IMG/VR virus record: IMGVR_UViG_3300031616_000204
Location: 1 to 45,816 of that record
Strand: one strand, 5' to 3'
DNA length: 45,816 nt
From: a virus
Shown: positions 25,066 to 45,816 of the stretch, piece after piece
Layout: every line of letters starts with the position of its first letter
Position numbering within the stretch: the stretch's first letter is position 1
The notes under the pieces: generated by a model
Databases searched by the model: none
What the model saw: the letters and a program-made list of their open reading frames with translations, nothing else
What the model was told of the DNA's origin: nothing
Program-made: the position numbers and the translations under genes

Positions 25066-26976
25066 GTGACCATCGCCACCTTCGAAACCCTCCCCCTCGG
25101 CGCGACCACCGCGGCCGCCGCCGGGTTCGACTTCCTGGCCGCCCCGGCCGGCGGCGGCGCGACCGTCATCGACACCAACCCCTACCGCGGCGCCCAATGT
25201 CTGCAACTGACCACCGGCACCGCCGGGGCGATCTGCTACGCCGAACGCTCCACCACGCTAGGCGTCGCCAGCAGCGGCCAGTTGTACGGGCGAGCCAGGT
25301 TCCGGCTGCCCGTGCTGCCGTCCGACGCGACCGGGATGCGGTTGTTCGTGGTGGCCGACAGCGCTGGCGCGTTCCTCGCCGAGCTCCGCATGACCAACGC
25401 GGGCCGGATCCAGCTGCGCTCTGGCGCCGGGACCATCCTGGCCACCGCCGCCGCCACCGTGGCAGCCGGGCAATGGTGCGATCTGGGTCTGGCCGTCCTG
25501 GCGTTCTCGGCCACAATCGGGCAGGCACAGCTGGTGGTGTTCGCCGGTGACGGCACCATCGCCGAAACGCTGACCTCGACAGCGACGCTCAACACCCTCG
25601 GCGCCGCAGGCACCACCAAGGCGTGGGTCGGCGCGATCCGCTCCGGACTCGCCTCGTTCGTCGTCGTGGTCGACGACGTCGACTGGACCACCACCGGCTG
25701 GCCGACCACCCCGACCGCACCCACCGTCCAAAACGGACCCTGGACGGGCGCGGTCACCCCGACTGGATTCACCGCCGCCTACCGGCTCTCCGGCGCCACC
25801 GCGGCCCGGCTCGTCGCCTCCACCACGGCCGAGCTCACCAACCCCGCCACGTCCGGCTGGGTGAGCCCGGATAGCGACGGCATCGTCAAACTGCCCATCA
25901 CCGGCCTCACCCCGGACACCGCCTACCACTACGCACTCGACGCCGACGGCGTCGTCCTGGACGCCGGCCGCGGCGAGGCCCGCACCTTCCCACCTGCCGG
26001 TCTCCCGGCGTCGTATTCGCTGTGGTTCGGGTCCTGCCAATGGACGGTCCCGACCGCCCTGACCTACGCGGCGATCCTCAACCGGACCGGCCCCACCGGC
26101 CGGGCGCTGCTCGGCATCCACATGGGCGACCTGCACTACCGGGACTGGGGCGCCACTACCACCGCCGCAGACATCCTCACCCAGTATTGGACGTCGTTCG
26201 GGTCGGCGGCGATGGCCCCGGCACTGGCCGCGATCCCGTTCAACTATGCGTGGGACAACCACGACTGGGGCGGCGATACGTCGGATCTGACCGCCCCGGC
26301 CGGGGATCTGGTCGCCGCCGGATACCGGCAGGTCATCCCCAGCTACCCGCTGCCGTCCTCGGACGGGCGCGGCTGCTTCCACAGCTGGGTCATCGGCCGC
26401 GTGAGGTTCATCCAGTTGGACGTCCGCTCGTTCCGAACCCCGCAAGCCGAAACCGACGGGCCAGACAAGACCATGCTCGGCGCCGAGCAGGTCGCCTGGT
26501 TCAAGACACAACTGTCCGCCCCGGAACCGTTGAAGGTCGTCTGCGGGAACTACTACTGGCGGCAGGACAACGTCAGTAGCGGACGGTGGGGCTCCTACGG
26601 CTACGAGTTCGAGCAGCTCAACGCCTACATCCAGGAGCACGACGTTCGGGTGTACGTGCTCTTCGGTGACCGGCACGCTTTGTGCGCGGACGACGGCAGC
26701 GCCCCCGGCGCGTACGGGGTTCCCCAGGCCGGAGGCGCGCCGATCCAACAAGGTTCCGTCGCCGGCGGAAGCGGCGAATCCTGGTCGGCCGGCTACTACC
26801 ACACCGCACCGGACACACTCCAGGCGTACGGGTGGCTGGACATTGTGGACTCCGGTACCGCGATCACCCTGCACTACCAGGGCATCACCTCCCTCGACGG
26901 CGTCACCCGCGTCGAGATGACCACCAGTTTCGAAGCCGCCAACTCGCTACCCGCCGTTTGGGGGATCCACCTATGA
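25066..26976 (+). CDS. tail protein with PhoD-like phosphoesterase domain
   Basis: 636 residues from GTG 25066. Residues 1-210 form a LamG-like beta sandwich (GRARFRLPVLPSDATGMRLF), 215-310 an Fn3/purple-phosphatase-like N-domain, and 315-620 a PhoD-type metallophosphoesterase: GSCQ (about 322), HMGDLHYRDW (about 352), WDNHDWGGD (about 396), LDVRSFR (about 450) and GDRHALCADD (about 533). Those are the metal-binding blocks of the family, so it is probably active. Bacillus PhoD degrades wall teichoic acid, so this protein may cut a phosphodiester-linked surface polymer at adsorption. It is the last gene before the membrane proteins, the usual receptor-binding slot. Confidence 0.8.
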   Translation: MTIATFETLPLGATTAAAAGFDFLAAPAGGGATVIDTNPYRGAQCLQLTTGTAGAICYAERSTTLGVASSGQLYGRARFRLPVLPSDATGMRLFVVADSAGAFLAELRMTNAGRIQLRSGAGTILATAAATVAAGQWCDLGLAVLAFSATIGQAQLVVFAGDGTIAETLTSTATLNTLGAAGTTKAWVGAIRSGLASFVVVVDDVDWTTTGWPTTPTAPTVQNGPWTGAVTPTGFTAAYRLSGATAARLVASTTAELTNPATSGWVSPDSDGIVKLPITGLTPDTAYHYALDADGVVLDAGRGEARTFPPAGLPASYSLWFGSCQWTVPTALTYAAILNRTGPTGRALLGIHMGDLHYRDWGATTTAADILTQYWTSFGSAAMAPALAAIPFNYAWDNHDWGGDTSDLTAPAGDLVAAGYRQVIPSYPLPSSDGRGCFHSWVIGRVRFIQLDVRSFRTPQAETDGPDKTMLGAEQVAWFKTQLSAPEPLKVVCGNYYWRQDNVSSGRWGSYGYEFEQLNAYIQEHDVRVYVLFGDRHALCADDGSAPGAYGVPQAGGAPIQQGSVAGGSGESWSAGYYHTAPDTLQAYGWLDIVDSGTAITLHYQGITSLDGVTRVEMTTSFEAANSLPAVWGIHL

Positions 26977-29917: not shown

Positions 29918-29984
29918 CCGTCGCCTACGCAAAGTCACCGCTGTGATGGGGACGGCGGTGTCCGGATTTGCCGATGATAGTGCG
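29918..29984 (+). repeat. island repeat, copy A
   Basis: Shares with copy E (43406-43469) an opening CCGTCG-CTAC followed by AAGTCAC, and the 17-base block TCCGGATTTGCCGATGA (29961-29977). Differences between A and E fall mainly every third base, which hints at past coding constraint: IGTAVSGFADES-like on the + strand, or LSSANPETAVP-like on the minus. Copy C shares the CCGGATTTGCCGA core. Copy A falls at the 3' end of the truncated minus-strand gene that follows. Confidence 0.65.
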
Positions 29985-30828: not shown

Positions 30829-33800
30829 ATGGCAGTGTTCCGATGGGGTCAGGCCGAGCACGGCCGCCTCGCCGACCTCGCGAACTCCATTCTGCTCACC
30901 AGCGACACCGGCGGCATGCGCGCCGCGATTGCGGCGACCGCACCCGCCGACCTCCGCAAGGTCGACGTGCTGTTCCGCAACCTGCTCGCCCGCCGCCGCA
31001 ACAACCCGACCGACGACGCGGAGCTAATCCCCGCCGTTGAGCAGCGACTGCAAGCGCTTTACCACTGGCGCACCCGTTCACCGCAACGGCGACCCTCCTA
31101 CCTGACCGGCGAGCGGGCTCCTTTCCTGGCCGACGAGCGGCTGCGCCGCCTGGTCAACACCACTTCGGCGGCCGAGTTCGCCGCACTTGCGGACGACTTC
31201 GCCGCGGTCGCAGGCCCGGATGTCGACGAGCTGCTCGGCCAGTTCGCAGGCGAACTGGCGGCGGATCTGTCGTTTCCGTCGGCCAACCTGGTGGAGCGGC
31301 GGCGCCGGATGATCGCCGCGCCCGAAAGCGGTGAACTCGAATTCGGTGACGGGGCCGTCGCACACGAGAACTTCCTCGCCGCGGCGATCGATTTCGAAAC
31401 CCTGCTGGCCACGCTGGCCGAGACCGGCGACACGAGCCTGCTCGACGCGGTCGTGGCCGCGATACCCGAGCTGGTCGAGCACCGATCCTGGAGCTTCTAC
31501 ATCGAGGAGCGTCGAATTCCCCTGCTGGAAGGATGCGCGAACGCGGCCACCCTGCGCTTCGAGACCTGGTCGGAGCCGGACGACATCCTGCTGGCGGTAC
31601 GGCTCAACGCGCAGCTGCTCGAAGAGATCGCGGTCGACGACCCGCGCCGGGCCGGATACTGCGCCAACCTCGGCAACAGCTTCCGTAGACGGTTCCGAGT
31701 CACCGACGACCTCACAGATCTCGATGACGCGGTCGCGACCCTCGAATACGCCGCCGACCTCTGCGGGCAGCGCGGTTCCGTCGCACCTCTGGTCTGCAGC
31801 GTTCTCGCCGGCGCGCTGCTGCTGCGCCATACGGTGGCCGACAATGACGCCGACCTTGTGCGGGCCGTCGCCGCAGCCGAACTTGCCGTTCGCCGAGCGT
31901 CGCGTAGCGACCCCGAGTATCCGACGTACTTCTTCGACCTGAGCGCGGTCCTGGTCGTCCGCTACCACCGCGACGGCGATCCGGCCGATCTGGAACGGGC
32001 TCGCGCGATGGCAGGCAAAGCGCTGCGGGCGGTGGAGGAGAAGGACCCTCGCCGCGCCATGTACGCCGACCACGTCAAAGCCCTCGCACATGGCCCGCCG
32101 CCGCTTCCCGCCCCGTCGGCCGAAACCGACGTACCCGCCTCACCGATCGACGATCCGGCGCCCGAAACAGGCCCGCCGGGGCTGTGCCCGATCTGTGGTG
32201 CGGCCTCGATAGCGCTACGCCATCCCGGGCCGATCGTGTCGGCGGTGGACAACGACGCGGCGTCGCTGCTGGAACTGCTGAGCGACGAGCCGCAGGTGCA
32301 CTGCGAGGTCTGCGGCACCGTCCTGCCCGTGCGCCCGGCCATGATCGCGTTGATGGTCGGCCCGGACGGCGCGCAACCACGCCTGGCGCTGCAGATCGCC
32401 GCGCCCGGCACGTTCCACCTGCGCAAAGACGACTACCGCCGGCTGGCCGACGCGGCGACCTACGTCGACCGGTTTGTCCAGCAAACAAACGGAAACGTCG
32501 TCGTGCAGAGCGGCATCGAGGTGATCACCAAGATCGTGGACTCCGTCGACGAGGTGATCGCCGAAGTAGCCGCGTCAGTCGATCACCGCCTCCAGATCGT
32601 CTATGCCGTCACCGAGGACCCGCAAGGCCTGCCCGGCCGATGGCGGGAGCTGACCGGCGCCGTGTTCACCACCGCCGACCTGCTGACCGACACCGAGATC
32701 CAGGGCCCCCACCGCCAGCTGACCGAAATCGACCTTGACTCCCTGCAGTTGACCGTCTGGCAGGAACTGGCCGCCTTCTGGTCCACACCCTCACCCGACC
32801 CGCGGCTGCTCTTCGACAGCGACCTCGGCAACTACGTGCGTCGGCAACCGTCGCCGCGTGCGGTGCAGCGATTCTGCGCGCTGCCACCACCCGCCGCCGA
32901 CTACTTCGCCGTCTACGCCTACCAGGCGCTCCGCGCCACCATCTGCACCGCAGCCGGCATCCCCAACGACCTGAACGACCAATGGGCGACCGTCTACCTG
33001 CTGAACGAAACGTCCCGAGGCCCGATCACCGTCAGCCGTTCCCGGGCGCGAGCGACGATCGGCATCGACAGCGCCCGCCGTGCCGTCACCGGACTGCTCA
33101 TAACCCACGCGGACCGCGCCGCACCCACCTTCGAGCACGACCTGCGCCGGGCCACGACGGACCTGGGCTTCGACCACCTCGTCGACGTCGTCGCCGCAGC
33201 GCTGACCACACAAGCACCGGCCACGGATCGGGACGCCGTCCTTGCCGCCGCCGACGCGTTCAGCGCCGCCGGGGCCACCGATCGGGCGCTCGCGGTACTC
33301 GAAGCCGCCCGCGCCAGGGGCAGCGGCGTGATCGAAGACTTCGACGCGCAATACACCTACGCTGCCCTGCTGTCGGAGAACGATTGCCACGCCGAGGCGC
33401 TGGCGGCGATGGTCCGCGCCGAGAACATGGCGCTGGATGCTCAGTCGCGGCTGCTGAGCCGTTACGCCCAGGCGAAACTGCACCTGCACGTAGGCGGCCG
33501 CGACCGGGCCGTGGAAATCCTCACCACCGAACCAGCACCCGGCCGGGAGTCGCCGCGATGGGCGCGAACGGTGCTGCTACAGGCCCTCACCTGGCGCAAC
33601 GTCCTCACCCTCGGCCCGGCACCGGCCGGATCGGACCCGCTGCTCGACGCCGTCGACACGGCCCTCGCCGGAATTACCGAACCCGCCGACGCGCACAGCG
33701 AGGCGGTCGCGCTGCGGGCGGGTCTTGCGGAGCTCCGCGGCACCGGAGCGGCGCCGGAACTCTACGCGCGGGCCGACGCGCTGCGCCGCGGCCAGCGCGT

Positions 33801-35214
33801 CGGCCGGGACCCGGTGGAACTGCTCGAACTCGCCCGCGCGGCCTACCGGAGCAAAGACCTCCCCGCAGCCCGCGAACTCGTCGCCGAGATCCCCGCGGCG
33901 ACCGCGTCCTGGCTCGGCACCCTCGACGACCCGGCGCTGGTGGCCGGTCGCCTGCGACCGTTCTCGGCCCGACTCGGCGAGCTGGCCCGCGATGCTATCG
34001 GCACCGATTGGAAGGATCTGCTGACCATCGGCGAGCTGCAGCGCGACACCGTGTACCGGCTGAGATCAGCATCCAGCGGCGTACTCGACGCCGGCGACCG
34101 GCAACCCGTCGACCTCTCCGAGGCCGGCCTGAGACGCCTGGCGCAGCCCGAAGGCACGCTTGCCGTCGTCGAATGGCTGAACGTCGGGCTGGGCCGCCGA
34201 ACCGACGGCTTCGCCGTGACGCCCGTCCTGGTGTGCACGATGATCCTGCCGAACCTCGGCGTCGGCGGCCGGATCCAAGCCGCCGCCGAGATACCCGCCA
34301 ACCACGACCACACGGTCCGCCGGGTGCGCGCCAAACTGGCGGCCTGGCACGCCGCACGCGCCGGCGACCCCCTGGACATGCCCGAATGGCAGGAAGCGGC
34401 CGCCTGGATGCGCGCCGTGCTCGCCCCTGCCGAGATCGGCGACGCCCACGTCGTGTTCATCGAACACCCGCTGTACCTCGGCGCACCCTGGCACACCGCC
34501 ATCGCCGGCAACTGGACCGCCTCGTACGCCAACAGCTGGCAGGAGATCCACGACCTCGTTGCCCGACCACGACGAAGGCCCACCAGCACGCTAGGCGTGC
34601 TTGTCGCGCCCCGATTCAACGAACCACCGCATATCCTCGCCGCGATGCACGCCTCCGTCGCCCGCAGCCGCGAACTCGCCGGTCCCACGCTGCTCACCAC
34701 CGAACCTGAACGCAACGACCACCACTGGTTCCACCACCTACTCACCCAAGCCGACCTCGTCAAAATCCTCTGCCACGGCTTCGTCAGCGCCACCGATCAA
34801 GAGGTCTGCCTGACGGTCGCCCACGACGGCAAACTCCCCACCTCCGGCTCCACCGCGGCCACCAGCCACGACCGCGGCCACCGCCTCAGCTGGCGCGACT
34901 GCCACGACCTGCACGACGCGAAAGCAACCGTCTTCAGCGCGGCATGCTCCAGCGCGAGCAGCTTCTCCACGGCCGCCGGCGACCGTCTCGGCCTCTTCCC
35001 GGCCCTGCGCCGCAGCGGTGTGCCCGCACTCGTAGCGCCTGGCTGGGACGCGTTGGCCGTACCCACCATCGACATCCTCGATAACGTGATCGACCTGTAC
35101 ACCGCCGGCCGGCCCCTCGCCCAGGCCGTCCGGCAGGCCGGCCGCACCGCGGCTGACCGCGACCTCAGCCCATGGATCGCCCGATCCCTGGCAGTGGAGG
35201 GAGACTGGCGTTGA
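30829..35214 (+). CDS. CHAT-domain protease with long sensor region
   Basis: 1461 residues. ATG 30829 is chosen for GAGGGGG at 30814-30820. Residues 1-400 are helical, TPR-like; a zinc ribbon follows (LCPICG, C453/C456; VHCEVCG, C492/C495); 650-1050 is mixed and then TPR-like again (ALAVLEAARARGSG, ALLSENDCHAEALAAM). The C-terminus from about 1130 is a CHAT caspase-like peptidase with the expected dyad: H1316 in LCHGF and C1373 in FSAACSS. CHAT proteins with TPR sensors cleave partner proteins on activation, as in Craspase or the gasdermin systems. The next gene starts on this gene's stop codon and is the natural partner. What the sensor detects is unknown. Confidence 0.85.
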   Translation: MAVFRWGQAEHGRLADLANSILLTSDTGGMRAAIAATAPADLRKVDVLFRNLLARRRNNPTDDAELIPAVEQRLQALYHWRTRSPQRRPSYLTGERAPFLADERLRRLVNTTSAAEFAALADDFAAVAGPDVDELLGQFAGELAADLSFPSANLVERRRRMIAAPESGELEFGDGAVAHENFLAAAIDFETLLATLAETGDTSLLDAVVAAIPELVEHRSWSFYIEERRIPLLEGCANAATLRFETWSEPDDILLAVRLNAQLLEEIAVDDPRRAGYCANLGNSFRRRFRVTDDLTDLDDAVATLEYAADLCGQRGSVAPLVCSVLAGALLLRHTVADNDADLVRAVAAAELAVRRASRSDPEYPTYFFDLSAVLVVRYHRDGDPADLERARAMAGKALRAVEEKDPRRAMYADHVKALAHGPPPLPAPSAETDVPASPIDDPAPETGPPGLCPICGAASIALRHPGPIVSAVDNDAASLLELLSDEPQVHCEVCGTVLPVRPAMIALMVGPDGAQPRLALQIAAPGTFHLRKDDYRRLADAATYVDRFVQQTNGNVVVQSGIEVITKIVDSVDEVIAEVAASVDHRLQIVYAVTEDPQGLPGRWRELTGAVFTTADLLTDTEIQGPHRQLTEIDLDSLQLTVWQELAAFWSTPSPDPRLLFDSDLGNYVRRQPSPRAVQRFCALPPPAADYFAVYAYQALRATICTAAGIPNDLNDQWATVYLLNETSRGPITVSRSRARATIGIDSARRAVTGLLITHADRAAPTFEHDLRRATTDLGFDHLVDVVAAALTTQAPATDRDAVLAAADAFSAAGATDRALAVLEAARARGSGVIEDFDAQYTYAALLSENDCHAEALAAMVRAENMALDAQSRLLSRYAQAKLHLHVGGRDRAVEILTTEPAPGRESPRWARTVLLQALTWRNVLTLGPAPAGSDPLLDAVDTALAGITEPADAHSEAVALRAGLAELRGTGAAPELYARADALRRGQRVGRDPVELLELARAAYRSKDLPAARELVAEIPAATASWLGTLDDPALVAGRLRPFSARLGELARDAIGTDWKDLLTIGELQRDTVYRLRSASSGVLDAGDRQPVDLSEAGLRRLAQPEGTLAVVEWLNVGLGRRTDGFAVTPVLVCTMILPNLGVGGRIQAAAEIPANHDHTVRRVRAKLAAWHAARAGDPLDMPEWQEAAAWMRAVLAPAEIGDAHVVFIEHPLYLGAPWHTAIAGNWTASYANSWQEIHDLVARPRRRPTSTLGVLVAPRFNEPPHILAAMHASVARSRELAGPTLLTTEPERNDHHWFHHLLTQADLVKILCHGFVSATDQEVCLTVAHDGKLPTSGSTAATSHDRGHRLSWRDCHDLHDAKATVFSAACSSASSFSTAAGDRLGLFPALRRSGVPALVAPGWDALAVPTIDILDNVIDLYTAGRPLAQAVRQAGRTAADRDLSPWIARSLAVEGDWR

Positions 35215-35735
35215 ACCCAGCAAGCGACGAATCCCTGGCCCGGTTCCTGACCGCCCGACAGGCCGACCGCGACACCATCGAACAGGCTGCCCGATACGCC
35301 GTAGCCGAACTCAGCCGCGACCTGACCCCCGACGAAATGCTCCACGAACTACGCGCCACCCTGAACGAACCCGACACCGCCCCGGCAACGGTCGCCGACC
35401 TCACCCGATCCCCGGCCGACCTGACCGAAACCGCCCTCTGGGTCCTCACCCACCTCTGGTACGACCTCGACGAACGCGAAGTCGTCGCCGGGGCAGTCAT
35501 CAATGCCCAAACGAAGCTACCCATCATCGAGGTCGCCGTAATCGCCACCAGCGTCCTCTACGGCCTGCACCTGATCATGACCCGGGGCGTAAAACGCAGC
35601 ACCCACAAAGTCGAATACCGCGCCGACGGCTCCTTCACGGAAACGACAACCCTTGACTACCAGACCCCACCCGCCGCCTCGCGTCTCGTCGCCGGCCTGC
35701 GCTCCCAAGACCCAGATCAGTCACCGGAGGCTTGA
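35211..35735 (+). CDS. small membrane protein coupled to the CHAT protease
   Basis: 174 residues from TTG 35211, overlapping the CHAT stop (TTGA) with GGAGGGAG at 35196-35203; this rare start is clearly supported by that site. The N-terminal 95 residues are helical and acidic (DRDTIEQAARYAVAELSRDL). One hydrophobic span lies at about 99-121 (LPIIEVAVIATSVLYGLHLI), then a basic, Thr-rich tail (RGVKRSTHKVEYRADGSF). It is not a gasdermin by size or pattern. It could be the protease substrate, freed or activated at the membrane by cleavage, or a membrane anchor for the protease. The coupling is seen; the role is inferred. Confidence 0.7.
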   Translation: MNPASDESLARFLTARQADRDTIEQAARYAVAELSRDLTPDEMLHELRATLNEPDTAPATVADLTRSPADLTETALWVLTHLWYDLDEREVVAGAVINAQTKLPIIEVAVIATSVLYGLHLIMTRGVKRSTHKVEYRADGSFTETTTLDYQTPPAASRLVAGLRSQDPDQSPEA

Positions 35736-36334
35736 CGCCGACCCGGAGCGATCAAATGGTCCATTCCTACACGATGAGGAGTACCACCGACCACGCTGCG
35801 TACGTGTAGGACGCGACCGTGCCTACACATCACCCACTGATGTTGCGGTATCTCGCCGGTGGTAGTGACGCCACAGGTGAACGGTAGCGGTACCTGCGAG
35901 AAGTGCAGCCACGGCGCCTTTCCGCTGCCGTTCGAAGGCCGGACGCTGGTCGCCCAGGGCAGCCTCACCGGCCGGCTTCAGCCAGACGAGCACGGCGAAT
36001 ACGGCGAACGACCGCGACACCGGCGCGGGTTTTCCTTGGGGAAAGAACTGCCGCCGCCAAACACCAGTGCACTGCCCGCGACCGCCATGATGGCAGCCCT
36101 ATTCGCCACACCGAGTTCATGATCTGCACGGACGAAAGTATGGGTCAAGCCGGCCGTGAAACCGAATCGTGCTGCGCGTAGGCGAACCGAAACACGCGAG
36201 GTTCTCGCCGTGATCGACTGCATTGTTCAGCGGCAAATACGGGCCACCGCCAGAATAGGACGAAATCCGTCGCGCGAGTCCGGTGATCTCATTCTAACTC
36301 CTCAACCACATATGATCGCCGCAGAACACTCATC
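35736..36334. other. gene-poor region after the CHAT operon
   Basis: About 600 bp with no supported gene. An 8-bp inverted repeat (TCCTACAC at 35765-35772, GTGTAGGA at 35804-35811) 30 bp after the stop may act as a terminator or be an element end. A minus-strand frame at 35823-36020 (SRSFAVFAVLVWLKPAGEAA) looks like a fragment of a membrane protein, but has no start site or clear ends. The base composition becomes mixed here. Confidence 0.4.
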
Positions 36335-36430
36335 TGCCGCGATCAGGCGCGCTGGCCGGAGGCGCGCGCCGTCACGCTCGGTAGTCGGCCAGCGCGCGGG
36401 CCGGCTCTCGGACATGCCGATGAGCGCGCA
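36335..36430 (+). repeat. island repeat, copy B (hairpin type)
   Basis: Copies B and D (40497-40590) share 23 identical bases at their left ends (36335-36357 and 40497-40519), a GTCACGCT block in the middle and GGACATGCCGA at the right (36410-36420). In B the bases GCGCGCTGGCC (36347-36357) and GGCCAGCGCGC (36387-36397) are perfect 11-bp inverted repeats, so the element can fold into a large hairpin. The right end resembles the GGATTTGCCGA core of copies A, C and E. Confidence 0.7.
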
Positions 36431-36497
36431 CCCAGCGGGCGTTTCTGGACTTGGAGCACACTGTCGCCCGACCATAGATCTTGCACGTGAGGACGGC

Positions 36498-36716
36498 ATG
36501 CGTCGGGAAACGTTCGTTGCTTACTTCCGCGACAAACTCGAAAACCTACTGGCGAATCACGCCGGGCGGTGGCAGAGTGGCGCTGTCTTTCATCGAATTT
36601 GTCGACCCAGCACCTCTGTTTCGGAGCGCGCGCCAAGCCCGTCGGTGTCGAATCCGCCCTGGAGCTCGCTCCGGTTGGTCGACTGCTTTATGGCCCGAGA
36701 TCCCTTCGCTCGGTAA
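36498..36716 (+). pseudogene. possible short gene fragment
   Basis: From ATG 36498 the frame reads MRRETFVAYFRDKLENLLAN then HAGRWQSGAVF and degenerates into Ser/Pro-rich sequence before the next gene. The first 35 codons look protein-like; the rest does not. It may be the 5' remnant of a gene cut off between repeat B and the next module. No family is recognised. Confidence 0.25.
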
Positions 36717-36727
36717 GGAGGAACCGT

Positions 36728-37915
36728 ATGGCGACTTGGCCGGGCACTCAAGATCACCAGGCTCTTTTTCGTATGGCAACGAGCCTCGCTAATGAGTTAC
36801 TCAGGATAGATGAACGCTTGATCCACTTAAACGACACGACGCATCGGCAGCATCAGGAGTTCGCTGGTCGTGCGCATAGTCTGGGCGTCTACCTACGGGC
36901 GGCGGTGCGGCAGGCGTTGGAGGACGACTACGCTCCCGCCTTCGCGTCGCTGCGGGTCGCGTTGGAGCACATGCTGCTCGATCAGCTCATCTTCAATGGC
37001 CAGCGCCTGATCCAGACCGCCCGCGGCGTGGATGACAAGACGTGGACCGAGTGGCAACGCCAGCGCACGGCCGGCGAAGGATTTACCAGCGTTATCGAGT
37101 GGACGCGATATGCAAAAAAGAGCACGGTCGAGATCATCACCGAAGGACTACGCTCGACGCCCGATGACGACGGAACCACCTACCTATTGAGCCCGTACTA
37201 CTTCCTCCTCCAGCAGTACAAGCCATTCTTCGGACCTGCAAGCGCCCAGCACGAATTCGACGACGGGATCGGCGAGGTCGACGAATTCCGTCGTCTCGCC
37301 AAAGAGTACGAGCAGTATTACCTGACCTATCTGAGCTGGTCGAGCATCAAGCGCAACTTGCGGCTGAATGGCTTCGCCGACGAGACCACCACCGGACGTA
37401 TCGATGTTCACTACCGGTTTCTGAGCGCGTTCGTGCACCCGACCACCAACACCAACGAGATCAGCTACGGCCGAAACAACCGAAACATCCCTCGGTATGA
37501 CCACTACAGCAGTGAACTCGCCCTGCTCTACACCATCGTCATCGCGGTCGAGGAGCTGCGGCACTTCCACGAGATGTCTCAACGGCCACCGCTCGTTGGC
37601 CTCGACGACTGGGACGACCTCGCCGCATTGTGCGATACCGCGTGGAGCCTCACGTCTCATCTCTGGTGGCCCGGCCAGCCGCCGCATGCCTGGGACCGCT
37701 TCCAGGAGGCCAACAAGCGGCGGTTTCGTGCCCTACGCGATTCCCCGACCACACCGCTACCGGGTCCAAGCCCCGACGCCATTCCCGAGCACGAGATCCG
37801 CTACTACCGCGACCCGATGCAGCGACTCGTTCGCCTGCATTCCAGCTTCCAAGAGATCATGACCAGGCTCGCCTATCAGTCACCGTGGCCACGAACCGAC
37901 GCACAGTTCCGGTAG
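36728..37915 (+). CDS. HEPN-like protein, function unknown
   Basis: 395 residues from ATG 36728, with AAGGAGG at 36715-36721; the frame upstream to 36569 has no such site. It is almost entirely helical. YRFLSAFVHPTTN holds R230 and H237, an Rx6H arrangement like the catalytic motif of HEPN ribonucleases, within a helix ending in H-P as in DUF5677/AbiV-type proteins. The N-terminus (RAAVRQALEDDYAPAFASLR, ALEHMLLDQL) is also typical of these helical bundles. No transmembrane span. It stands alone between repeats B and C. If a HEPN RNase, it could cut RNA after phage infection; only motif and context support this. Confidence 0.6.
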   Translation: MATWPGTQDHQALFRMATSLANELLRIDERLIHLNDTTHRQHQEFAGRAHSLGVYLRAAVRQALEDDYAPAFASLRVALEHMLLDQLIFNGQRLIQTARGVDDKTWTEWQRQRTAGEGFTSVIEWTRYAKKSTVEIITEGLRSTPDDDGTTYLLSPYYFLLQQYKPFFGPASAQHEFDDGIGEVDEFRRLAKEYEQYYLTYLSWSSIKRNLRLNGFADETTTGRIDVHYRFLSAFVHPTTNTNEISYGRNNRNIPRYDHYSSELALLYTIVIAVEELRHFHEMSQRPPLVGLDDWDDLAALCDTAWSLTSHLWWPGQPPHAWDRFQEANKRRFRALRDSPTTPLPGPSPDAIPEHEIRYYRDPMQRLVRLHSSFQEIMTRLAYQSPWPRTDAQFR

Positions 37916-38573
37916 CCGCGTGCTCGCATAGCTGCGACTCAGTGCCCGCAATAGCTCACGGGACGCTGGTGGCTGGCCGGCGGTTGCGGGCACAACGACC
38001 GTCGACTCGGTCAACAGTACGGCGTGACCTCGCCAGGTCGCCTTCCGTGAACCCCACGTCCGACTCGTGCTGATGTACTCAGCGCGTCAGCGAAACGCGT
38101 GCTGGCTCCCGGTCGTGCGCGCTACCTCGCTCGGGACCACACTCCGGGAGTCTGAAAGGGCTGCCGTTGGCTCACCCGAGCCGATGGCGTCAGCGCAGTG
38201 CTTGTGTACGTGAGTGTGAGGTTTAGCGGCGGCATAGTGGCCGTCCCTGTTGGGTAGCTTGAGTTCCTGCCATACCAGACGCTGCGACCTCGCGGACGGC
38301 TGCCTCGACCCGACGGTCACCGCGTACCACCGTCATGATGATCGTGTTTCAGCACGAGCATGGTTACCGGATTTGCCGAGAAGAGCGCATATACGGCGTG
38401 CTCCTATCGCGGGCAGAAGGCACGGGGATGCGGAAGCCGAGTGTGCGCTCTTGTACTTCAAAGCGCCATTTGGGCCGGCAGGTTGACCGGGGCCGCTGGG
38501 GCGGCCGAATGCGGAATTTGAGACGCCGCGTAACGGCAGGTGAAGTTACTATTGGCAGGCATGGAGCAGCGGA
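37916..38573. other. gene-poor region containing repeat C
   Basis: About 660 bp between the + strand HEPN-like gene and the 3' end of the minus-strand gene at 38574. A minus-strand frame at 38087-38320 (RLVWQELKLPNRDGHYAAAK in part) reads like protein but has no ribosome site and no known family. Nothing else is supported besides the repeat at 38316-38390. Confidence 0.45.
38316..38390 (+). repeat. island repeat, copy C
   Basis: Begins GTCACCGCGTACCACC and ends CCGGATTTGCCGAGAAGAGC, with the core at 38367-38379. It shares 13 bases with A and E at the core and the GAAGAG that follows with copy D, so it links the two subtypes. It has the same orientation as all other copies although the adjacent downstream gene is on the minus strand. 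Confidence 0.6.
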
Positions 38574-40379
38574 TCAGCCCGGCTGATCGCCGTCTGGTGA
38601 CCCGTCGTTCGATACAGGAGGTTGGCGCCGCCACTTCGTCGAATCCCATTCCAAGCCGACAAGGCGCCTCCTCCGCCACCGTTTCGGCCGACGTATGAAG
38701 TTTGCAACCAGCAGGAGGGTTGCGAGAAAAAGAAAGCCAGCATACATCAGAATTATCGCATTGGCTCCGCCCTTGGCCCACTCGATCAAAGGCCGCGCCG
38801 CAGGGACAATGAATGGAGGCGGCTTCCACTGCGCAATCACGGATAGTGAGTCTCGAATTGCTGGAATACCAAGTAGGACGGTCGCGAAAGAGCCGATTCC
38901 AGCAATCAGGTAATTTCTCCTGACGCTGGCATCGACCTTCCGCACGTCCACCAACTGCTGGTTCATGGCCAAACGATCAACCACCCTCTGATGGAGTTCG
39001 CCCACGTTGAGTTTGGCCAAGATGTCAGCAACGATATCTTGGGCGCCTCCGAAGGATATGGTCGAGGACCTATGCTCTGCGATACCTTCCGCCAGTCTAA
39101 GCTGTATTTTAGTCAGAGTACTCGCCCGTCGTTCGGAAAGATCGAGCCGGTTATCAAGCTCCTGAATCTGCCAGTATTGAAGTACTGCATTCTCAATGAT
39201 TGCAACTGTATCGAGAAGTGACACGAAGGAAGGGGCATACTCTGTTTCGTCGGTATTCCAGTCGACGGTGACGGCGTTGCCACCGTTGTAATAGCGGGAG
39301 CTGCTACGTTGTATCGACCTGTCCGCCTGCAGCACTTTAGCGGTTGTCGCATCGCCGATATCACCAAAATCGTCATAGCGGAGGATTAGCCCGGCGAGCT
39401 CATCCGAGTGCGACTTCAGCCACCGATCTCGGGTGCCACAGCAGGCGATACCCCCGATTGCTAGGGTGGCATAACAGAAGTAATCGCCGACTCTTCCGCC
39501 ACGTTCGCCTGCGAGTTCGCAGATTCTGTCTCGATAAACGAAGAAGGCATCCGCAATACTGAAGTCATCGGCCCATTCGATGCGACGGTGTGTTGGCACG
39601 CTATCGCCATCTGGCAGCAGTTCGTCGGTCCGTGCAACTTGATCTGCGATCTCGCCGACCCCGACAACTGGGATTGGAAACGTCGTAGAGGTCAAGGTCA
39701 TCGTCTTGCTGACGGATGCTCTGACCAATTCAACCGAAGAGCGGTTGCTCCCGACTACTGTGTAAAACGTGAGGAGCGCTACGCCGGAGCGATGCAAAAC
39801 CAGGATCGGGATTATCGTTTCGTCCGCCAGAAGGCGTGATGTCGCCCCTAGATTTCCAAGCTCGAGACGAATAAATGGCCCCTTGCGCAAATATATAGGG
39901 CTAAAGAGAAATTCATCTGTGGCCGCGGCAGCGCCGAGCACCTTGGCATTTTCTGCCATGGCAGCATCAATCTCGGCGACTGATTCGCGAAGAGAGGATA
40001 GATTCGTGCGGTCAGAGCTGGAAAGTCTTCCGGCCTTGTTGGAAGAAAGGCTAAACCGCAGAACGCGACGCCTAAACGCAAAGGCGGCCGCCCTTGGATT
40101 ATTGAAAACCCAGCGGAACGTGCTAATTTTCCCGTCCGCAACCTCGGCAATATTGGATAATCCCTCGAGGGTGTCGCGCGCCCTTAGGGCGGCAAGCTGG
40201 CGCCTACTGACACGCATCGTCGTGGATGGCGCTACGGCGGCCACATCCGCAACACCGGTGTCGAGAAGTCGATTCGCTAGATCATCTATGTCGGAGCCGG
40301 GCGGAAGAGAGAACGCGTAGGTGAAGCAGACGCCAACCGCCGAGTACTTTGCCCGGTGTCGGGAGCGGCCGAATTTCAT
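38574..40379 (-). CDS. unknown protein with two C-terminal membrane segments
   Basis: 601 residues on the minus strand from ATG 40379, GGAGG 11 bases upstream. About 480 N-terminal residues are soluble: an alpha/beta section (VSRRQLAALRARDTLEGLSN), a cysteine spot (IGGIACCGTRD), then a coiled-coil-like stretch (LDNRLDLSERRASTLTKIQL). Two spans follow at about 490-508 (YLIAGIGSFATVLLGIPAI) and 540-560 (IILMYAGFLFLATLLLVANF), ending in a basic tail (RRPKRWRRRR). A large sensor plus two terminal spans after a coil is the layout of CorA-like and other membrane-effector defence proteins. Codon use is much less GC-rich than the prophage, which suggests transfer. No family is recognised. Confidence 0.6.
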   Translation of the reverse strand: MKFGRSRHRAKYSAVGVCFTYAFSLPPGSDIDDLANRLLDTGVADVAAVAPSTTMRVSRRQLAALRARDTLEGLSNIAEVADGKISTFRWVFNNPRAAAFAFRRRVLRFSLSSNKAGRLSSSDRTNLSSLRESVAEIDAAMAENAKVLGAAAATDEFLFSPIYLRKGPFIRLELGNLGATSRLLADETIIPILVLHRSGVALLTFYTVVGSNRSSVELVRASVSKTMTLTSTTFPIPVVGVGEIADQVARTDELLPDGDSVPTHRRIEWADDFSIADAFFVYRDRICELAGERGGRVGDYFCYATLAIGGIACCGTRDRWLKSHSDELAGLILRYDDFGDIGDATTAKVLQADRSIQRSSSRYYNGGNAVTVDWNTDETEYAPSFVSLLDTVAIIENAVLQYWQIQELDNRLDLSERRASTLTKIQLRLAEGIAEHRSSTISFGGAQDIVADILAKLNVGELHQRVVDRLAMNQQLVDVRKVDASVRRNYLIAGIGSFATVLLGIPAIRDSLSVIAQWKPPPFIVPAARPLIEWAKGGANAIILMYAGFLFLATLLLVANFIRRPKRWRRRRLVGLEWDSTKWRRQPPVSNDGSPDGDQPG

Positions 40380-40496
40380 ACGCTTTCCGTCCTCCGGCTG
40401 ATGAGACTGAACGAACGAGGCCTATTTTAGGGCAACCGCGCAAGAGCGTGGCATGCACCTTTCGGGAGGAAATTCGTCAGGCCCGGCGTATTCGCA

Positions 40497-40590
40497 TGCC
40501 GCGATCAGGCGCGCTGGCCAGCTGCACCACGTCACGCTTGGTGGTCGGGCCAGCGCCCCGGCCAGCTTCTGGACATGCCGAGAAGAGTGT
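40497..40590 (+). repeat. island repeat, copy D (hairpin type)
   Basis: Pair of copy B. GCGCTGGCC (40511-40519) and GGCCAGCGC (40548-40556) are perfect inverted repeats, with a second small stem inside (CACCA/TGGTG). The right end is GGACATGCCGAGAAGAG (40571 onward), joining it to copy C. It lies 118 bp upstream of the start of the minus-strand gene at 40379. Confidence 0.7.
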
Positions 40591-41099
40591 GGTGGCTAGA
40601 CGGGTGGATGATATTTGACGTTACCCTACTAAGAGATTTTTAAATGCGCTACACTCACGCTGGCAATGACTGCTGTCACGCACGCTGAGACGATTTGGAG
40701 CGCTAAGGGGCGGGCATCCCAGCCTCACGGCCGTTCTGAGATCGTTGATCATGCGACGAGCGTCGATCCCGCGAAGGCAAAATTTCCGATTTTCGCGTTG
40801 CAAAGTGGATGGCGACTGAAAAGCTCCGGACGCCTGCCGCTATCGGGTTTTCGTTCTTCCTGCCTGGCGACACGCCGTAATGTCGCCCCAACGAGTGGTG
40901 CCAATTTCAGTGATCAACGATCTCAGAACGACCGTGATCCCAGCCTGCCGCGGCTGCAGTCATTGCGCTGACGGCGGCGATCGTCGCGGGCAGCCATGGC
41001 GCTCCCCAGTGTTTGCGCCCGCGGACCATGGGTACATGGTAGAGCCTACAGGCAAGCGGCGCCGCACTGCGATATCCCGGGCTCCTGATGCCTGCCGTG
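40591..41099. other. gene-free stretch containing a MITE-like element
   Basis: No gene is supported here. The stretch between repeat D and the two-gene operon holds the 213-bp inverted-repeat element at 40725-40937; short frames inside it on both strands mirror each other because its ends are inverted copies. The flanks are unremarkable. Confidence 0.5.
40725..40937. mobile_element. MITE-like element, 213 bp
   Basis: The left end (40725-40752, starting TCACGGCCGTTCTGAGATCG) and the reverse complement of the right end (40910-40937) agree at 26 of 28 bases. The element is flanked by direct copies of TCCCAGCC at 40717-40724 and 40938-40945, an 8-bp target duplication (9 bp if one shared base is counted). 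It is too short to encode a transposase, so it must be moved by one elsewhere. An 8-10-bp duplication fits the ISAs1, ISL3 or IS256 groups; the family is not fixed by what I can see. Confidence 0.8.
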
Positions 41100-41546
41100 C
41101 TAAGGAGTGGGCAACTGTGAATTTCCAGGATTCACGCCAGTCAAATAGTGCTGCGATAGTGATGCCTCGGCGTAATTCTCTGCACGCGCAATCGCCAGCA
41201 GGAGCAACTCTTCAAGCTCATCAGTGTCGAGCCGGCTAATGGCTCGCGTCGAATTTGCGAAAGCCTCGACTACGAACCTGTCTTGACTTGTAGCTCCAGC
41301 GATTCCTGACATAACGACAGACCGGGCGTTAATATCCGAACTGGGTCCCGGATTAGTTAGGGCGACTTCCGCCGACCTCAAGATCTCCTCGGCGGTCCAT
41401 GTCACTGAAACGAACCAACTCCCATGTCGTTCGCCCGCTCGGGCCTTAGCGGGCCTGTCAGCGAGAGCCTGCCGAGTTCTGGCGGGCAGCTCGCTCGCCC
41501 ATTGTGTAAACACAGCCTTAAGGCTGGAAAAGTCGTCCACCTGCAC
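41100..41546 (-). CDS. hypothetical protein, second gene of a two-gene operon
   Basis: 148 residues from GTG 41546, five bases after the upstream gene's stop. The sequence is helical and acidic (SSLKAVFTQWASELPARTRQ, TAEEILRSAEVALTNPG, DELEELLLLAIARAENYA). No membrane span, motif or known family is seen. The tight spacing implies that it works with the upstream gene. Codon use is less GC-rich than in the prophage. Confidence 0.55.
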   Translation of the reverse strand: MQVDDFSSLKAVFTQWASELPARTRQALADRPAKARAGERHGSWFVSVTWTAEEILRSAEVALTNPGPSSDINARSVVMSGIAGATSQDRFVVEAFANSTRAISRLDTDELEELLLLAIARAENYAEASLSQHYLTGVNPGNSQLPTP

Positions 41547-41551
41547 GCCGC

Positions 41552-41980
41552 CTACCTGACCTGCACCGTGCCAACATCAACTACGGCATCTTTTGGAAAG
41601 CCGTTTGGCAGGAAGTACTCGATACCTTGGCCGAACCGAATCCAGGCCGGTCCACGTACTAAGTCGATCTTTGTCGGATCGAGCAATAGAGCATGCTGCC
41701 TCTTTAAGCGAGGCGACCATAGCGCCAGCCAGAAAACAACGTCCTTGGGGCTGATGGCCGTGGGGGTTACCCAGTGCCCCCTCCCTGGGCTGCCATCGTT
41801 AAATTCGGTGACCTGCGAGGCCACCAGATATCTAACGAGGAACCGACTGCCGAGCTCTGCCGCCACGGCCGCTCCGGTTCGATCCGGCATGTCTTCGACA
41901 GGCTGCAATCGAGATGCGATCACGGAGGTCAGCTCTATTTGTTCCTGATCCAGCGTCGTGGCCATCCAGGAGCAAGTCAC
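41552..41980 (-). CDS. hypothetical protein, first gene of a two-gene operon
   Basis: 142 residues from GTG 41980, with GGAGG about 5 bases upstream on the minus strand. The N-terminus is helical (TLDQEQIELTSVIASRLQPV); the C-terminal part is beta-rich with several Trp and Pro (KDVVFWLALWSPRLKRQ, GPAWIRFGQGIEYFLPNGF). Short unknown pairs like this are common in defence islands; toxin-antitoxin or a two-part system are options, with no motif to choose between them. Confidence 0.55.
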   Translation of the reverse strand: MTCSWMATTLDQEQIELTSVIASRLQPVEDMPDRTGAAVAAELGSRFLVRYLVASQVTEFNDGSPGRGHWVTPTAISPKDVVFWLALWSPRLKRQHALLLDPTKIDLVRGPAWIRFGQGIEYFLPNGFPKDAVVDVGTVQVR

Positions 41981-42339
41981 AGCGTCCTCCAGCGCTTGCT
42001 GCCAACCCTAACTCTTACTCATGCGAGCTACCTTCGACTGCCTGAAGTCATTCTTCCATGAACCAGGAAGCCATGAGGTTAAATCGATACAGTCGTACGG
42101 ACCGCGACCAACTCACATGCCGCCATTAGGATGCAGGGGGCGCCGGGTTGGTCACTATCCGTGTTTGGCGTGCCTCACGCGCCGCGACCCGGACGGGATC
42201 CGCCGAGAGACAGGTATCGACGCCGCGGTCAGCCTTGCTCGCGTGTGCTAGCCCGCCGATAGCTATCCCCCGACCGGCCGGTCTTGGCGCTGCCGGGAGT
42301 CTGGCCCGGTCGATCGGAGTTGATGGCATCCTGTCAACC
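41981..42339. other. divergent promoter region
   Basis: About 360 bp between the minus-strand operon and the NYN gene, holding both promoters. Short frames on the + strand here have no ribosome site. No copy of the island repeat is seen in this gap, so these two modules are the exception to the punctuation pattern. Confidence 0.4.
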
Positions 42340-43317
42340 ATGAGGTCCAGGTGCTCTCTCTACGTGGACGTCGGCTACCTGCTCGGTTCCGCAGCCGTCC
42401 GGGTGACGGGAACATCGTTGCGCAGCGGAATTCACGTCGCCTACCCGCCGCTCATTGACGCACTCATTCGACAGGCCGAGCAGGTATCGGAACTGCCGGT
42501 GCTGCGGGTGCACTGGTACGACTCAGCCAGAGACGGCGTACCCGACTCCCAGCAGCAGGTCATCGGGGAGCTGCCCAAGGTCAAGTTACGGCTCGGCCGG
42601 TTCGGCGTGGACGGCCAGCAGAAAGGCGTCGACCTGCGTATCGGGCTCGACCTCGTGACGCATGCCCGCAACGCCGCCGCCGACGTCTTCATTCTCGTCT
42701 CGGGCGACGATGATCTCACCGAGGCGGTCGAGGAAGCCCAGGTCCACGGCGTGCAGGTCATCCTGCTCGCCGTCGCCAACAGCGAGAACAAGCCCCACGG
42801 CATGAGCCGGCACCTGATCCGGGCCGCCGACGGGCTCGAGATCCTGCCGCAGGAAACCATCGCTCAAACGGTAACGAAAGCCGAAACGCCCCCAGCCACG
42901 CCAGCCACGCCGCAGCCGGCAGCGATCGCCCAGCCAGACGTAAAGCCACGAACCAGAGCCACGCCCAAGGACCTCGCCGGCCTGGGCCGCTCCGACGTGG
43001 TCCGTCCCCCGTCGTCCGTGCTCGCCTACAGCGCGGCCACCGGCCGCGAGCCGCAACTCACCAACGGGTACCAGGACCCTGCCGAACTCGCCGAACAGAT
43101 CGACCTCGTGGTCACCAACGTCCTGACGGCATTCCGCGCGTCCGCCACCGCGGACGCGCTGGCAGAACTCAAGGCAGGAAAGCCATCGATCCCGCGAGAC
43201 ATCGACAAAGCCCTGCTGACTGACCTATCCGACAGCCGCGGCGAACTCGACTTGAGCGAACGGACACGCCACCAACTGCGGGCACATTTCTGGACGAAAG
43301 CCGACGAGATGCCGTAA
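42340..43317 (+). CDS. NYN-domain (PIN-like) RNase-type protein
   Basis: 325 residues. ATG 42340 is chosen because the protein-like sequence begins there (MRSRCSLYVDVGYLLGSA); GGAG at 42316 is too far for a normal ribosome site, so the message may be leaderless. The NYN (LabA/DUF88) fold shows acidic sites in YVDVGY (D10), KGVDLRIGLDLV (about D88) and LVSGDDDLTEAV (about 120-124), the metal-binding set of PIN-like nucleases. A Pro/Thr-rich linker (200-235) leads to a helical C-terminal domain (AEQIDLVVTNVLTAFRASAT). Such proteins cut RNA or act as sensors; the substrate is unknown. GC-rich codon use is like the chromosome. Confidence 0.8.
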   Translation: MRSRCSLYVDVGYLLGSAAVRVTGTSLRSGIHVAYPPLIDALIRQAEQVSELPVLRVHWYDSARDGVPDSQQQVIGELPKVKLRLGRFGVDGQQKGVDLRIGLDLVTHARNAAADVFILVSGDDDLTEAVEEAQVHGVQVILLAVANSENKPHGMSRHLIRAADGLEILPQETIAQTVTKAETPPATPATPQPAAIAQPDVKPRTRATPKDLAGLGRSDVVRPPSSVLAYSAATGREPQLTNGYQDPAELAEQIDLVVTNVLTAFRASATADALAELKAGKPSIPRDIDKALLTDLSDSRGELDLSERTRHQLRAHFWTKADEMP

Positions 43318-43405
43318 TGCAGGTCATCAGACGCAGAGCCACCCGCTGCACCCGGCAGCACCCGTTGCGCCAACCCAGCCCAGCACAGCAGCGGGCCACG
43401 AGAGC

Positions 43406-43469
43406 CCGTCGACTACACGAAGTCACGCACATTGGAACCGCGGTTTCCGGATTTGCCGATGAGAGTACG
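43406..43469 (+). repeat. island repeat, copy E
   Basis: Pair of copy A, with TCCGGATTTGCCGATGA at 43446-43462 and a palindrome (GGAACCGCGGTTTCC, near-perfect) just before it. It lies 88 bp after the NYN gene and before the 3' end of the minus-strand ATPase gene. The remaining 270 bp to that gene are gene-free and AT-richer. Confidence 0.65.
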
Positions 43470-43699
43470 TTCTGCAATTGCGACTTGAACTGTCAATTGG
43501 ATTGCGCTCAGCCGCGGATCCCCCACTCGGTTGTGTCATCCGCAGGGGCAGACAAGGGATCCACCGAATGCGTCAGGATATACGATGGAAAGGATAAGGA
43601 TAGCTGTATTGGCGATCAGGAACATACCCAAGCCTACCCGCCAGGACAGGTAACTGCTCCTTCGGCTCAGCCACGCACTATTCACCTTGAATTACCTGA

Positions 43700-43736
43700 A
43701 GGCATAGAAAAAATATTACAAAGAAGAATTTCTTCT
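43700..43736 (-). terminator. intrinsic-type terminator of the ATPase-TOPRIM gene
   Basis: On the minus strand, right at the stop codon, AGAAGAA and TTCTTCT (43736-43730 and 43728-43722) form a 7-bp stem followed within 15 bases by a run of six T (about 43714-43709). The stem is weak and AT-rich, unusual for this GC-rich genome but in keeping with the foreign composition of the gene. Confidence 0.5.
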
Positions 43737-45645
43737 ACTTCGGAAGATCTGCAACGGCCTTAAGGATTTCGACAATCTCGACTGCAATTTCCTCTTTTTC
43801 AAATGCTTCCGCGAGTCGCTCATTTCCAAAGCTGGCCCCGAAGGTTGATTGTACAACCTGCCGAATCTTCGAGAGTAGCGTCTTCCCAGGAAGAATGGAG
43901 AGTCGCGTTTCAAGCGCCGGCCAGGCCGTTTCCACTGCCTCCCGAGCTTGTCTGTTTGCCTCGGCGACCCCAGCGCGGCGATCGTTTCTAGCGAACTCAT
44001 CGACAAGGTATCGCTGTGAGATTCGGTCCGTTGCGGAGATGCGAAGGTCATCGCAAACTTCGTCAATCAAATTCCTCACGTCATTATCCGAGGTTGAAAC
44101 CTGCAATCCTCTCTCCCCGCAGACGTCCTCGATGACGCGCCGGAGAACAGCAGGATCAATGAGATAGCTTTCTATGCAGTCGCGCTCAAAGATATGAAGG
44201 GGCCGCTTGGCGCTGGCAATCTGATCCGTGCGAACTTCGGCCATCCGGCCGTCACGGTCTTTAATTTGCAGCGTATTGAGTTTGACTCCGAGAACACCCT
44301 CGAGGACGTCGAGCTGCTGCAGATGCCCTTCGTTGTCGGAGCCTCCCGTCTGGACGATGACCACTCGGTCATCTCCCGTCAGTGCACGGATCTCCAAGGT
44401 CGCTGCGAAACGACCCAAGATCGCTTGATCCGTAGTTCCTTCGACGAACAGGCATCTCCGATTGGAGACCAATGCATACGCGTCCACATTGTCAATCATG
44501 CCAAGGGATTTAAGAATCGTTACGGGAGTTACTGCATATGTGGCGGACTCAGCTGCTCGGGCCCCGCTTTCGATGAGAATGAGTCTACTCGGGTCCACAA
44601 AATTGATGATCTCCTTGCTGTGGGTGGAGAGAACCACTTGGAACTGCTGGGTTCCAGCTACCTCGTCGAGAATTTCAACGACGACTCTTTGAAGCGCTGA
44701 GTGCAGATGAGCGTCTGGCTCGTCAAGTAGCAGTACGCTAGCGTCACGCGTGAGGATGAACGCGAGCATCTGGACTACTTGGACAAAGCCCGCCCCCGCG
44801 GAGTAGAGGTCGTGCCGAGTTCCCTCATCGTTGGCGTAGTCCGCACTGACAAACTGGTCGAAGGCACCGTCGAATTCGACGCCCGCAAGGCGAGCATTGA
44901 AGCGTTGACTTAGTATTTCTTGCAGCTGGTCGAATCGCTCGGGGCTCTCTTGACTCAGAAGAACAAGTAGATTCCTGAGAACCTCGTTGTGGCGTCCCGC
45001 GCTGATAAGTCCTCTTTGACGGGCGGCCGTCCTATATTCTTCGTCACGCACGATTCCGACTGAGCTTGGCACCCATACCGCAGGATGAGCCAGCAGCGCA
45101 CTGAACGTATCCTCGCCGATTTCTTCCTGACTCTCAATTCTGCTGTTGATGCTGCCGAAGATTGATCGAACACCAAACTCGACTTTTGTCCCGTTGTCGA
45201 ACTCAGCACCAACGATGGCGGGAACGTTCGTGTTCCTTCGCCTCGTAATGCCGTGATAGAACAAGTCTTTTGGGGTCGCAACAGGAAGAATAGCCGGATT
45301 GAGGAGCTTTCCTCTGTCCCGTACGCGGTCTCCAGCGGCATGCACTTTCAATAGCGAGTAGAAGAGGTCAATACCTTGAAGAAGGGTTGACTTTCCTGCA
45401 TTGTTTGCGCCTGCCAAAACGTTGAATCGTCCAAGGTGGACTTCGAATTGCTCAAAACCCTTGAAATTGCGAAACCAGACTTTCCGGATGTGGGGGGCGG
45501 GTTTCGTAGACTCTGGTGGCGGGCTGACGAGAGCCTTCGGAACGCGTTCACCGGTGATTCTGGTTTCGTCATCTAGATCCGCACCTGACTCGCTATCTAG
45601 ATCTTGTTCGTCGGGGAGTTCCGCCGGGTCGTTGTCAACTGTCAC
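43735..45645 (-). CDS. ATPase-TOPRIM defence protein (OLD / fused PARIS-like)
   Basis: 636 residues on the minus strand; GTG 45645 is taken as start because the frame upstream to the window edge looks non-coding (Arg/Ser-rich). No strong ribosome site, so the start is approximate. An acidic 50-residue N-terminus precedes an ABC/AAA ATPase: Walker A GANNAGKST (about 79-87), signature YSAGAGFVQVV, Walker B VLLLDEPDAHLH and H-loop STHSKE. The C-terminus is TOPRIM-like: LFVEGTTDQAIL (Glu) and IFERDCIESYLIDP, the latter like DUF4435 (AriB of PARIS). Thus either a class 1 OLD nuclease or a single-chain AriA-AriB. No helicase partner as in Gabija lies downstream. Less GC-rich than the prophage. Confidence 0.78.
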   Translation of the reverse strand: MTVDNDPAELPDEQDLDSESGADLDDETRITGERVPKALVSPPPESTKPAPHIRKVWFRNFKGFEQFEVHLGRFNVLAGANNAGKSTLLQGIDLFYSLLKVHAAGDRVRDRGKLLNPAILPVATPKDLFYHGITRRRNTNVPAIVGAEFDNGTKVEFGVRSIFGSINSRIESQEEIGEDTFSALLAHPAVWVPSSVGIVRDEEYRTAARQRGLISAGRHNEVLRNLLVLLSQESPERFDQLQEILSQRFNARLAGVEFDGAFDQFVSADYANDEGTRHDLYSAGAGFVQVVQMLAFILTRDASVLLLDEPDAHLHSALQRVVVEILDEVAGTQQFQVVLSTHSKEIINFVDPSRLILIESGARAAESATYAVTPVTILKSLGMIDNVDAYALVSNRRCLFVEGTTDQAILGRFAATLEIRALTGDDRVVIVQTGGSDNEGHLQQLDVLEGVLGVKLNTLQIKDRDGRMAEVRTDQIASAKRPLHIFERDCIESYLIDPAVLRRVIEDVCGERGLQVSTSDNDVRNLIDEVCDDLRISATDRISQRYLVDEFARNDRRAGVAEANRQAREAVETAWPALETRLSILPGKTLLSKIRQVVQSTFGASFGNERLAEAFEKEEIAVEIVEILKAVADLPK

Positions 45646-45816
45646 GCAATGCAAACTATCAGTACTCGCCGAGTTCGCGAGGCCGGTGCGGCCGCGGCCG
45701 CAATCGCTCGCGCTACCGATCTTGGACGACGCCCGCATCCAAGATCTTCTTCTACCTCGGTATCCGGATCTGCCGCGAACCGGTGCTCGGACCGTCACTT
45801 TCAGTGTCGAACCCAC
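45646..45816. other. window edge upstream of the ATPase gene
   Basis: 171 bp at the right edge. It should hold the promoter of the minus-strand ATPase gene. No gene is supported; the open minus frame is Arg/Ser-rich and probably not translated. Confidence 0.4.

Follow-up and report, generated by a model that had tools for sequence, protein, structure and literature searches.

A CHAT-domain protease gene and the small membrane-protein gene that begins on its stop codon form, as judged from comparison of their sequences, one inherited module; the same two genes are found together in distant bacteria, and their products therefore probably work as one unit. The pair lies in a 45.8-kb virus record (hereafter the window, meaning the whole stretch of DNA that was analyzed). 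The coupling of a CHAT gene to a small membrane-protein gene, which was the core observation of the original prediction, was confirmed both in the open reading frames (ORFs) and in relatives, and the arrangement is well beyond chance.

Architecture of the CHAT Protease

The CHAT domain is the only part of the pair recognized by Pfam. The match to PF12770 covers residues 1293–1443 of the 1461-residue protein with an E-value of 2.8e-7 and a score of 30.7 bits, against a cut-off of 24. The dyad H1316/C1373 was said to be intact and is seen as such in the ORF translation, in the contexts C1315-H1316-G and AA-C1373-SS. Both residues are retained in all nine paired CHAT proteins, which suggests that proteolysis is probably the output of the pair. 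The CHAT core had no sequence match to any solved structure, and its predicted model (pLDDT 46) was too poor for use.

Upstream of the CHAT domain, the four-cysteine ribbon of the window protein aligns with the N-terminal ribbon of the CHAT proteins from Streptomyces, Photobacterium, and three further genomes (G269, G571, and G590). Seven of the nine paired CHATs contain a ribbon; none is present in the more distantly related G748 protein, which does have TPRs. Matches of the ribbon to CpXC were sub-threshold (E = 0.024 for L002 and 0.0095 for L017), and no CpXC members for comparison were found in 100 actinobacteria. TPRs were weakly detected in the relatives, and the window protein gave no Pfam match to them.

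The N-terminal module of about 440 residues had no relative in the plasmid collection and no Pfam match. Because this extra arm is found in the window alone and the ribbon is N-terminal in the relatives, the alignments indicate a family core of ribbon, helical repeats, and CHAT domain, to which the arm of the window protein was added by a local fusion. The proposal that a zinc ribbon between two TPR regions constitutes an unusual sensor layout is thus not upheld, as what was described is an extra module placed ahead of a core in which the ribbon normally comes first.

Table 1. Features of the CHAT gene and its partner gene, in window coordinates
Feature	Position	Strand	Basis or remark
CHAT-domain protease gene, 1461 aa	30829..35214	+	ORF and Pfam CHAT; relatives L002, L003, L004, L010, L016, L017, L018, L080
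N-terminal module, aa 1-440, weakly repeat-like	30829..32148	+	Window only among family members (alignment)
Four-cysteine zinc ribbon (C453, C456, C492, C495)	32185..32313	+	CpXC-like in relatives, below cut-off
Helical middle region, weakly TPR-like, aa 496-1050	32314..33978	+	Weak TPR matches in relatives; low-confidence helical model
CHAT caspase-like protease domain, Pfam-matched part, aa 1293-1443	34705..35157	+	Pfam
Catalytic His1316 codon	34774..34776	+	Kept in 9/9 members
Catalytic Cys1373 codon	34945..34947	+	Kept in 9/9 members
Shine-Dalgarno-like GGAGGGAG	35196..35203	+	Within codons of CHAT C-terminal EGDWR motif
4-nt stop/start overlap TTGA	35211..35214	+	ATGA at same place in L002, L003, L004, L010, L080
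Small single-span membrane partner, 174 aa	35211..35735	+	ORF, relatives, hydropathy; AF2 model pLDDT 65
Predicted membrane helix, aa 104-123, acidic residue E107	35520..35579	+	Acidic residue in all members
Predicted beta hairpin after membrane helix, aa 128-150, DG turn	35592..35660	+	AF2 model

Overlap of the Two Genes

As predicted, the second gene starts with a TTG on the CHAT stop codon (context cgTTGA), with the final two bases of the TTG falling inside that stop, giving an overlap of 4 nt. We favored this start, at 35211, over an in-frame ATG at 35172 because the homologous small proteins begin at the equivalent position. The claim of a strong ribosome site is partly sustained: the Shine-Dalgarno-like GGAGGGAG does stand ahead of the TTG, but the same bases encode the conserved EGDWR, a C-terminal motif common to most CHATs of the paired clade, so that the sequence is partly dictated by the protein. 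GGA accounts for 9% of the Gly codons in the CHAT gene. The GGAGGGAG element supports coupling less strongly than first appears, and the 4-nt overlap, present in six of the nine loci, is better evidence.

Overlapping genes favor matched synthesis, and each CHAT clade has one partner family; both points would suit a small protein that acts as an inhibitor (antidote) or chaperone of the CHAT protein, whose restraint would be lost on infection to free a toxic protease. An inhibitor would have no need of a membrane helix, however, and in this gene order it would be made after the toxin. We regard this explanation as improbable.

The Small Membrane Partner

All members of the partner family share a layout of an N-terminal helical part, a hydrophobic helix, and a short basic segment, and most also have a hairpin with a DG turn. 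The 174-residue protein of the window was expected to span the membrane once, and hydropathy and the structural model agree on a single membrane helix. The mean hydropathy of the span (residues 104–123) is 1.8 in the window protein and 1.5–2.4 in its relatives. An acidic residue stands at the start of this helix in nine of nine partners (Glu, E107 in the window; Asp in L080), and conservation within the protein is highest in the helix and the TRGxK segment. The AF2 model (pLDDT 65) predicts helices within residues 9–84, a long helix at 86–123, strands at 128–136 and 142–150, and a final short helix. Flanking charge, which is not decisive, favors in the close relatives an orientation with the C-terminal tail in the cytoplasm and the acidic N-terminal domain on the outer side of the membrane.

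The small protein had no match in Pfam or NCBIfam. A Foldseek search of its model, which is of moderate confidence (65), against the PDB gave nothing below E 0.17, and the best match was not a gasdermin. With its length of 174 residues, a mainly helical model, and no Pfam or fold match, the partner fits its earlier description as non-gasdermin. PDB matches such as BID (E 0.3) and a PADLOC match to Csx1 (E 0.009) were taken as chance.

Conservation of the Pair

Relatives of the small protein have 18–41% identity to it and occur in Streptomyces, on a Photobacterium megaplasmid, and in other actinobacteria. Searches by tblastn identified it on a Streptomyces plasmid (41%) and the Photobacterium megaplasmid (37%), and further relatives came from Streptomyces sp. 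SID12501 and the distant actinobacterium G269. Each of these four genes immediately follows a CHAT gene, which it overlaps by the 4 nt ATGA. Two further matches to the small-protein profile, G209 and G855, were dropped for marginal E-values (9.7e-4 and 8.4e-4, respectively), the latter also having an internal stop.

Searching with the CHAT core alone retrieved G571 (E = 2.6e-88), G590 (E = 2.1e-22), and G748 (E = 3.7e-16), and a further search of plasmids, run with the CHAT protein of G748, yielded L080. Each of these four loci carries a small protein of the same layout directly behind the CHAT gene, at a distance of 0 nt in G571, 16 nt in G590, and 43 nt in G748 and with an ATGA overlap in L080. 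The small protein was not used in these searches; of the eight pairs besides that of the window, the other four were found through it, and the unbiased count is thus 4/4. The partner gene of L080 (L080:3541-4121) is split by a frame shift in the assembly, reflecting either a disabled copy or a sequencing error. When plasmids were searched with the CHAT domain of the window itself, only two records matched, both of which also hold the small gene. These searches covered 1,550 genome slots, mostly of actinobacteria, with other phyla sampled only via plasmids. Scans of the viral collection with small-protein and CHAT alignments returned no other phage copies.

Overall, the membrane gene lies 3′ of the CHAT gene in nine of nine loci. 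The original prediction would have been refuted had CHAT homologues usually lacked the small gene; within the clade, every member found has the pair, and the prediction survived this test. A small single-helix partner of this kind was found behind none of 29 ordinary actinobacterial CHATs retrieved with PF12770 and none of seven plasmid CHATs of cyanobacteria and proteobacteria. One control CHAT (L019) is followed by a 471-residue protein with one N-terminal hydrophobic stretch, which is not the small partner.

A maximum-likelihood tree of 38 CHAT domains places the nine paired CHATs together on a single branch (95/95) and requires 1 label change versus 8.3 in shuffles. The CHAT and partner distances also co-diverge, with a Mantel r of 0.965 for eight pairs (48 of 40320 permutations) and of 0.862 when a near-duplicate is left out (25 of 5040 permutations). 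The single paired branch and the correlated distances are most simply explained by a single acquisition of the partner, which was then retained while two phyla diverged deeply. A chance adjacency, with the small gene functionally unlinked to the CHAT gene, can draw on the general frequency of overlapping genes and nothing further. Set against nine of nine versus 0/29 and 0/7, the spread over two phyla, and the co-divergence, it is exceedingly improbable, and we rejected it on the co-occurrence.

Genomic Setting

The window is a bacterial virus or prophage genome, the first ~28 kb of which contain actinophage-type terminase, head, and tail genes. No structural phage genes were detected among the ORFs tested beyond 28.5 kb. 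A protein with a PhoD-like phosphatase domain is encoded at 25066–26976, after the tail genes and before the phage part ends. From 36001 to 45816 the G+C content is 0.55–0.62, compared with ~0.70 in the phage part. This region encodes a 601-residue membrane protein with no family match (38574–40379, minus strand), an NYN-domain protein (42148–43317), and an OLD/AriA-like ATPase that runs to the window end (43735–45816, minus strand).

A 39-nt imperfect direct repeat occurs at 29946–29984 and 43431–43469, with a weaker copy at 38351–38389, in the gaps between gene modules. Its core has two exact copies versus 0.01 expected by chance, and the outer copies flank the CHAT pair. This repeat, which had no match in 198 actinobacterial genomes, in plasmids, or in other viral contigs, is possibly a recombination or attachment site. 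We also observed a 27-nt inverted repeat (40725–40751 and 40911–40937; 96% complementary, 159 nt apart) and a 23-nt identical direct repeat (36335–36357 and 40497–40519; 4162 nt apart). There was no Rfam match near the gene pair, and the window contains no tRNA.

Several pair loci have neighbors of defense type. The OLD/AriA-like ATPase and the NYN nuclease are near the pair in the window, an SduA-like gene and an IetA-like AAA ATPase accompany it in Streptomyces, and a CBASS-type phospholipase lies nearby in Photobacterium. Such neighbors are no more than suggestive of a role in defense. The pair might instead serve host regulation or development, through proteolytic signaling at the membrane, and be merely carried by mobile elements. 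Its presence close to housekeeping genes on one actinobacterial chromosome (L010) and its rare and patchy distribution are compatible with such a role, whereas the mobile-element and defense-gene neighbors at several loci argue against it; we consider it quite unlikely.

In the Streptomyces locus L002 (L002:3514-5414), two small genes and an IetA/TRIP13-like AAA ATPase gene precede the CHAT gene in a tight array, and the ORFs of L004:4514-6414 are laid out in the same way. The ATPase-containing array is possibly an extended version of the module.

Proposed Function of the Pair

The largest share among the explanations goes to a protease-gated membrane effector that would provide abortive-infection-type defense, a tentative proposal that we hold with a little less than even confidence. 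A soluble, caspase-like CHAT protease would carry a sensor or scaffold arm formed by the zinc ribbon and helical repeats, and the single-span partner would be made in step with it via the stop/start overlap. A trigger sensed by the arm could then switch on the CHAT domain, which would cut the partner at the membrane or, once active, engage it. The altered partner would damage or depolarize the membrane, and the outcome could be abortive-infection-type defense.

We ranked this proposal first because defense proteases of the caspase type that have a dedicated neighbor cut that neighbor, as the CHAT protease of Craspase cuts Csx30 (PMC11106740). A second reason is that no part of the partner is better preserved than its membrane helix, which bears the acidic residue. 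Several points were counted against the proposal. The genomic signature would look no different if the partner were a membrane tether or sensor; a C-tail-in topology leaves only ~50 residues for a cytosolic protease; CATASP is a coupled small CHAT partner without a membrane span; and no PADLOC model matches the pair.

Carried one step further, the protease-gated effector could represent a new class of single-span membrane effectors, unrelated to gasdermins and licensed by CHAT proteases, in which cleavage by the co-translated protease would convert the resident one-pass protein into a killing or pore-forming one. This extension is possible but somewhat less likely than not. If true, it would mean that bacterial caspase-type proteases act through membrane partners beyond gasdermins. 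The pairing conserved over two phyla offers a compact system of two genes for direct tests of what the substrate is, how the protease is activated, and what happens at the membrane.

Comparison with Known Systems

The proposed logic of a protease-activated membrane protein is that of bacterial gasdermins, in which a caspase-type protease cuts a dedicated neighbor. The partner described here differs from them in being a mainly helical protein of 174 residues with a predicted constitutive membrane helix and no gasdermin match. The IetAS system combines an AAA ATPase with a protease, IetS, which is a subtilase. In Streptomyces L002 the gene directly ahead of the CHAT gene encodes an IetA-like ATPase, but the protease there is a CHAT rather than a subtilase, and the window has no such ATPase upstream.

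Craspase of type III-E CRISPR systems likewise couples a TPR-CHAT protease (Csx29) to a dedicated substrate (Csx30). No Cas7-11 or other Cas protein was seen in the window, where arrays were looked for through repeats only. The cleavage sites of Craspase are not conserved (PMC11106740).

A coupled small gene behind a CHAT gene is not new in itself, since CATRA/CATASP systems (PF20271) have one in the same position, as seen behind the Streptomyces CHAT L028/L092. The CATASP protein of L028, however, is soluble and lacks a membrane helix. An assignment of the partner to CATASP was rejected, with no Pfam match and an hhalign probability of 0.2%, although the latter comparison, against just two CATASP rows, was a weak one. 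CATRA systems were defined in a 2020 survey (Burroughs and Aravind, J Bacteriol; cited in PMC8195603), which possibly lists the window pair without a Pfam model.

Of the arrangements described, the closest is the EACC1-caspase two-gene system (Kaur et al. 2020, PMC7159879; Pfam PF19953). It, too, joins a protein that has a single conserved membrane helix and short flanking domains with a caspase-superfamily protease, and it occurs in actinobacteria with sporadic proteobacteria. The EACC1 gene, however, is 5′ of the protease gene, whereas the membrane gene of our pair is 3′, and the caspase is N-terminal with diverse C-terminal domains, whereas the CHAT domain is C-terminal. An assignment of the partner itself to EACC1 was rejected, with no Pfam match and an hhalign probability below 1% against 14 EACC1 members.

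The role proposed for EACC1 (PMC7159879) lends some weight to a partner that serves as a membrane tether or sensor, holding the CHAT protease at the membrane or reporting membrane damage to it, with other proteins as the true substrates. Conservation of both halves flanking the partner helix is in keeping with such a role, and the invariant acidic residue within the helix suggests more than anchoring. The missing homology to EACC1 and the reversed gene order weaken the parallel, and we judge a tether or sensor somewhat unlikely. Even so, it would place beside the EACC1-caspase systems a second pair built with an unrelated membrane part, a case of convergence.
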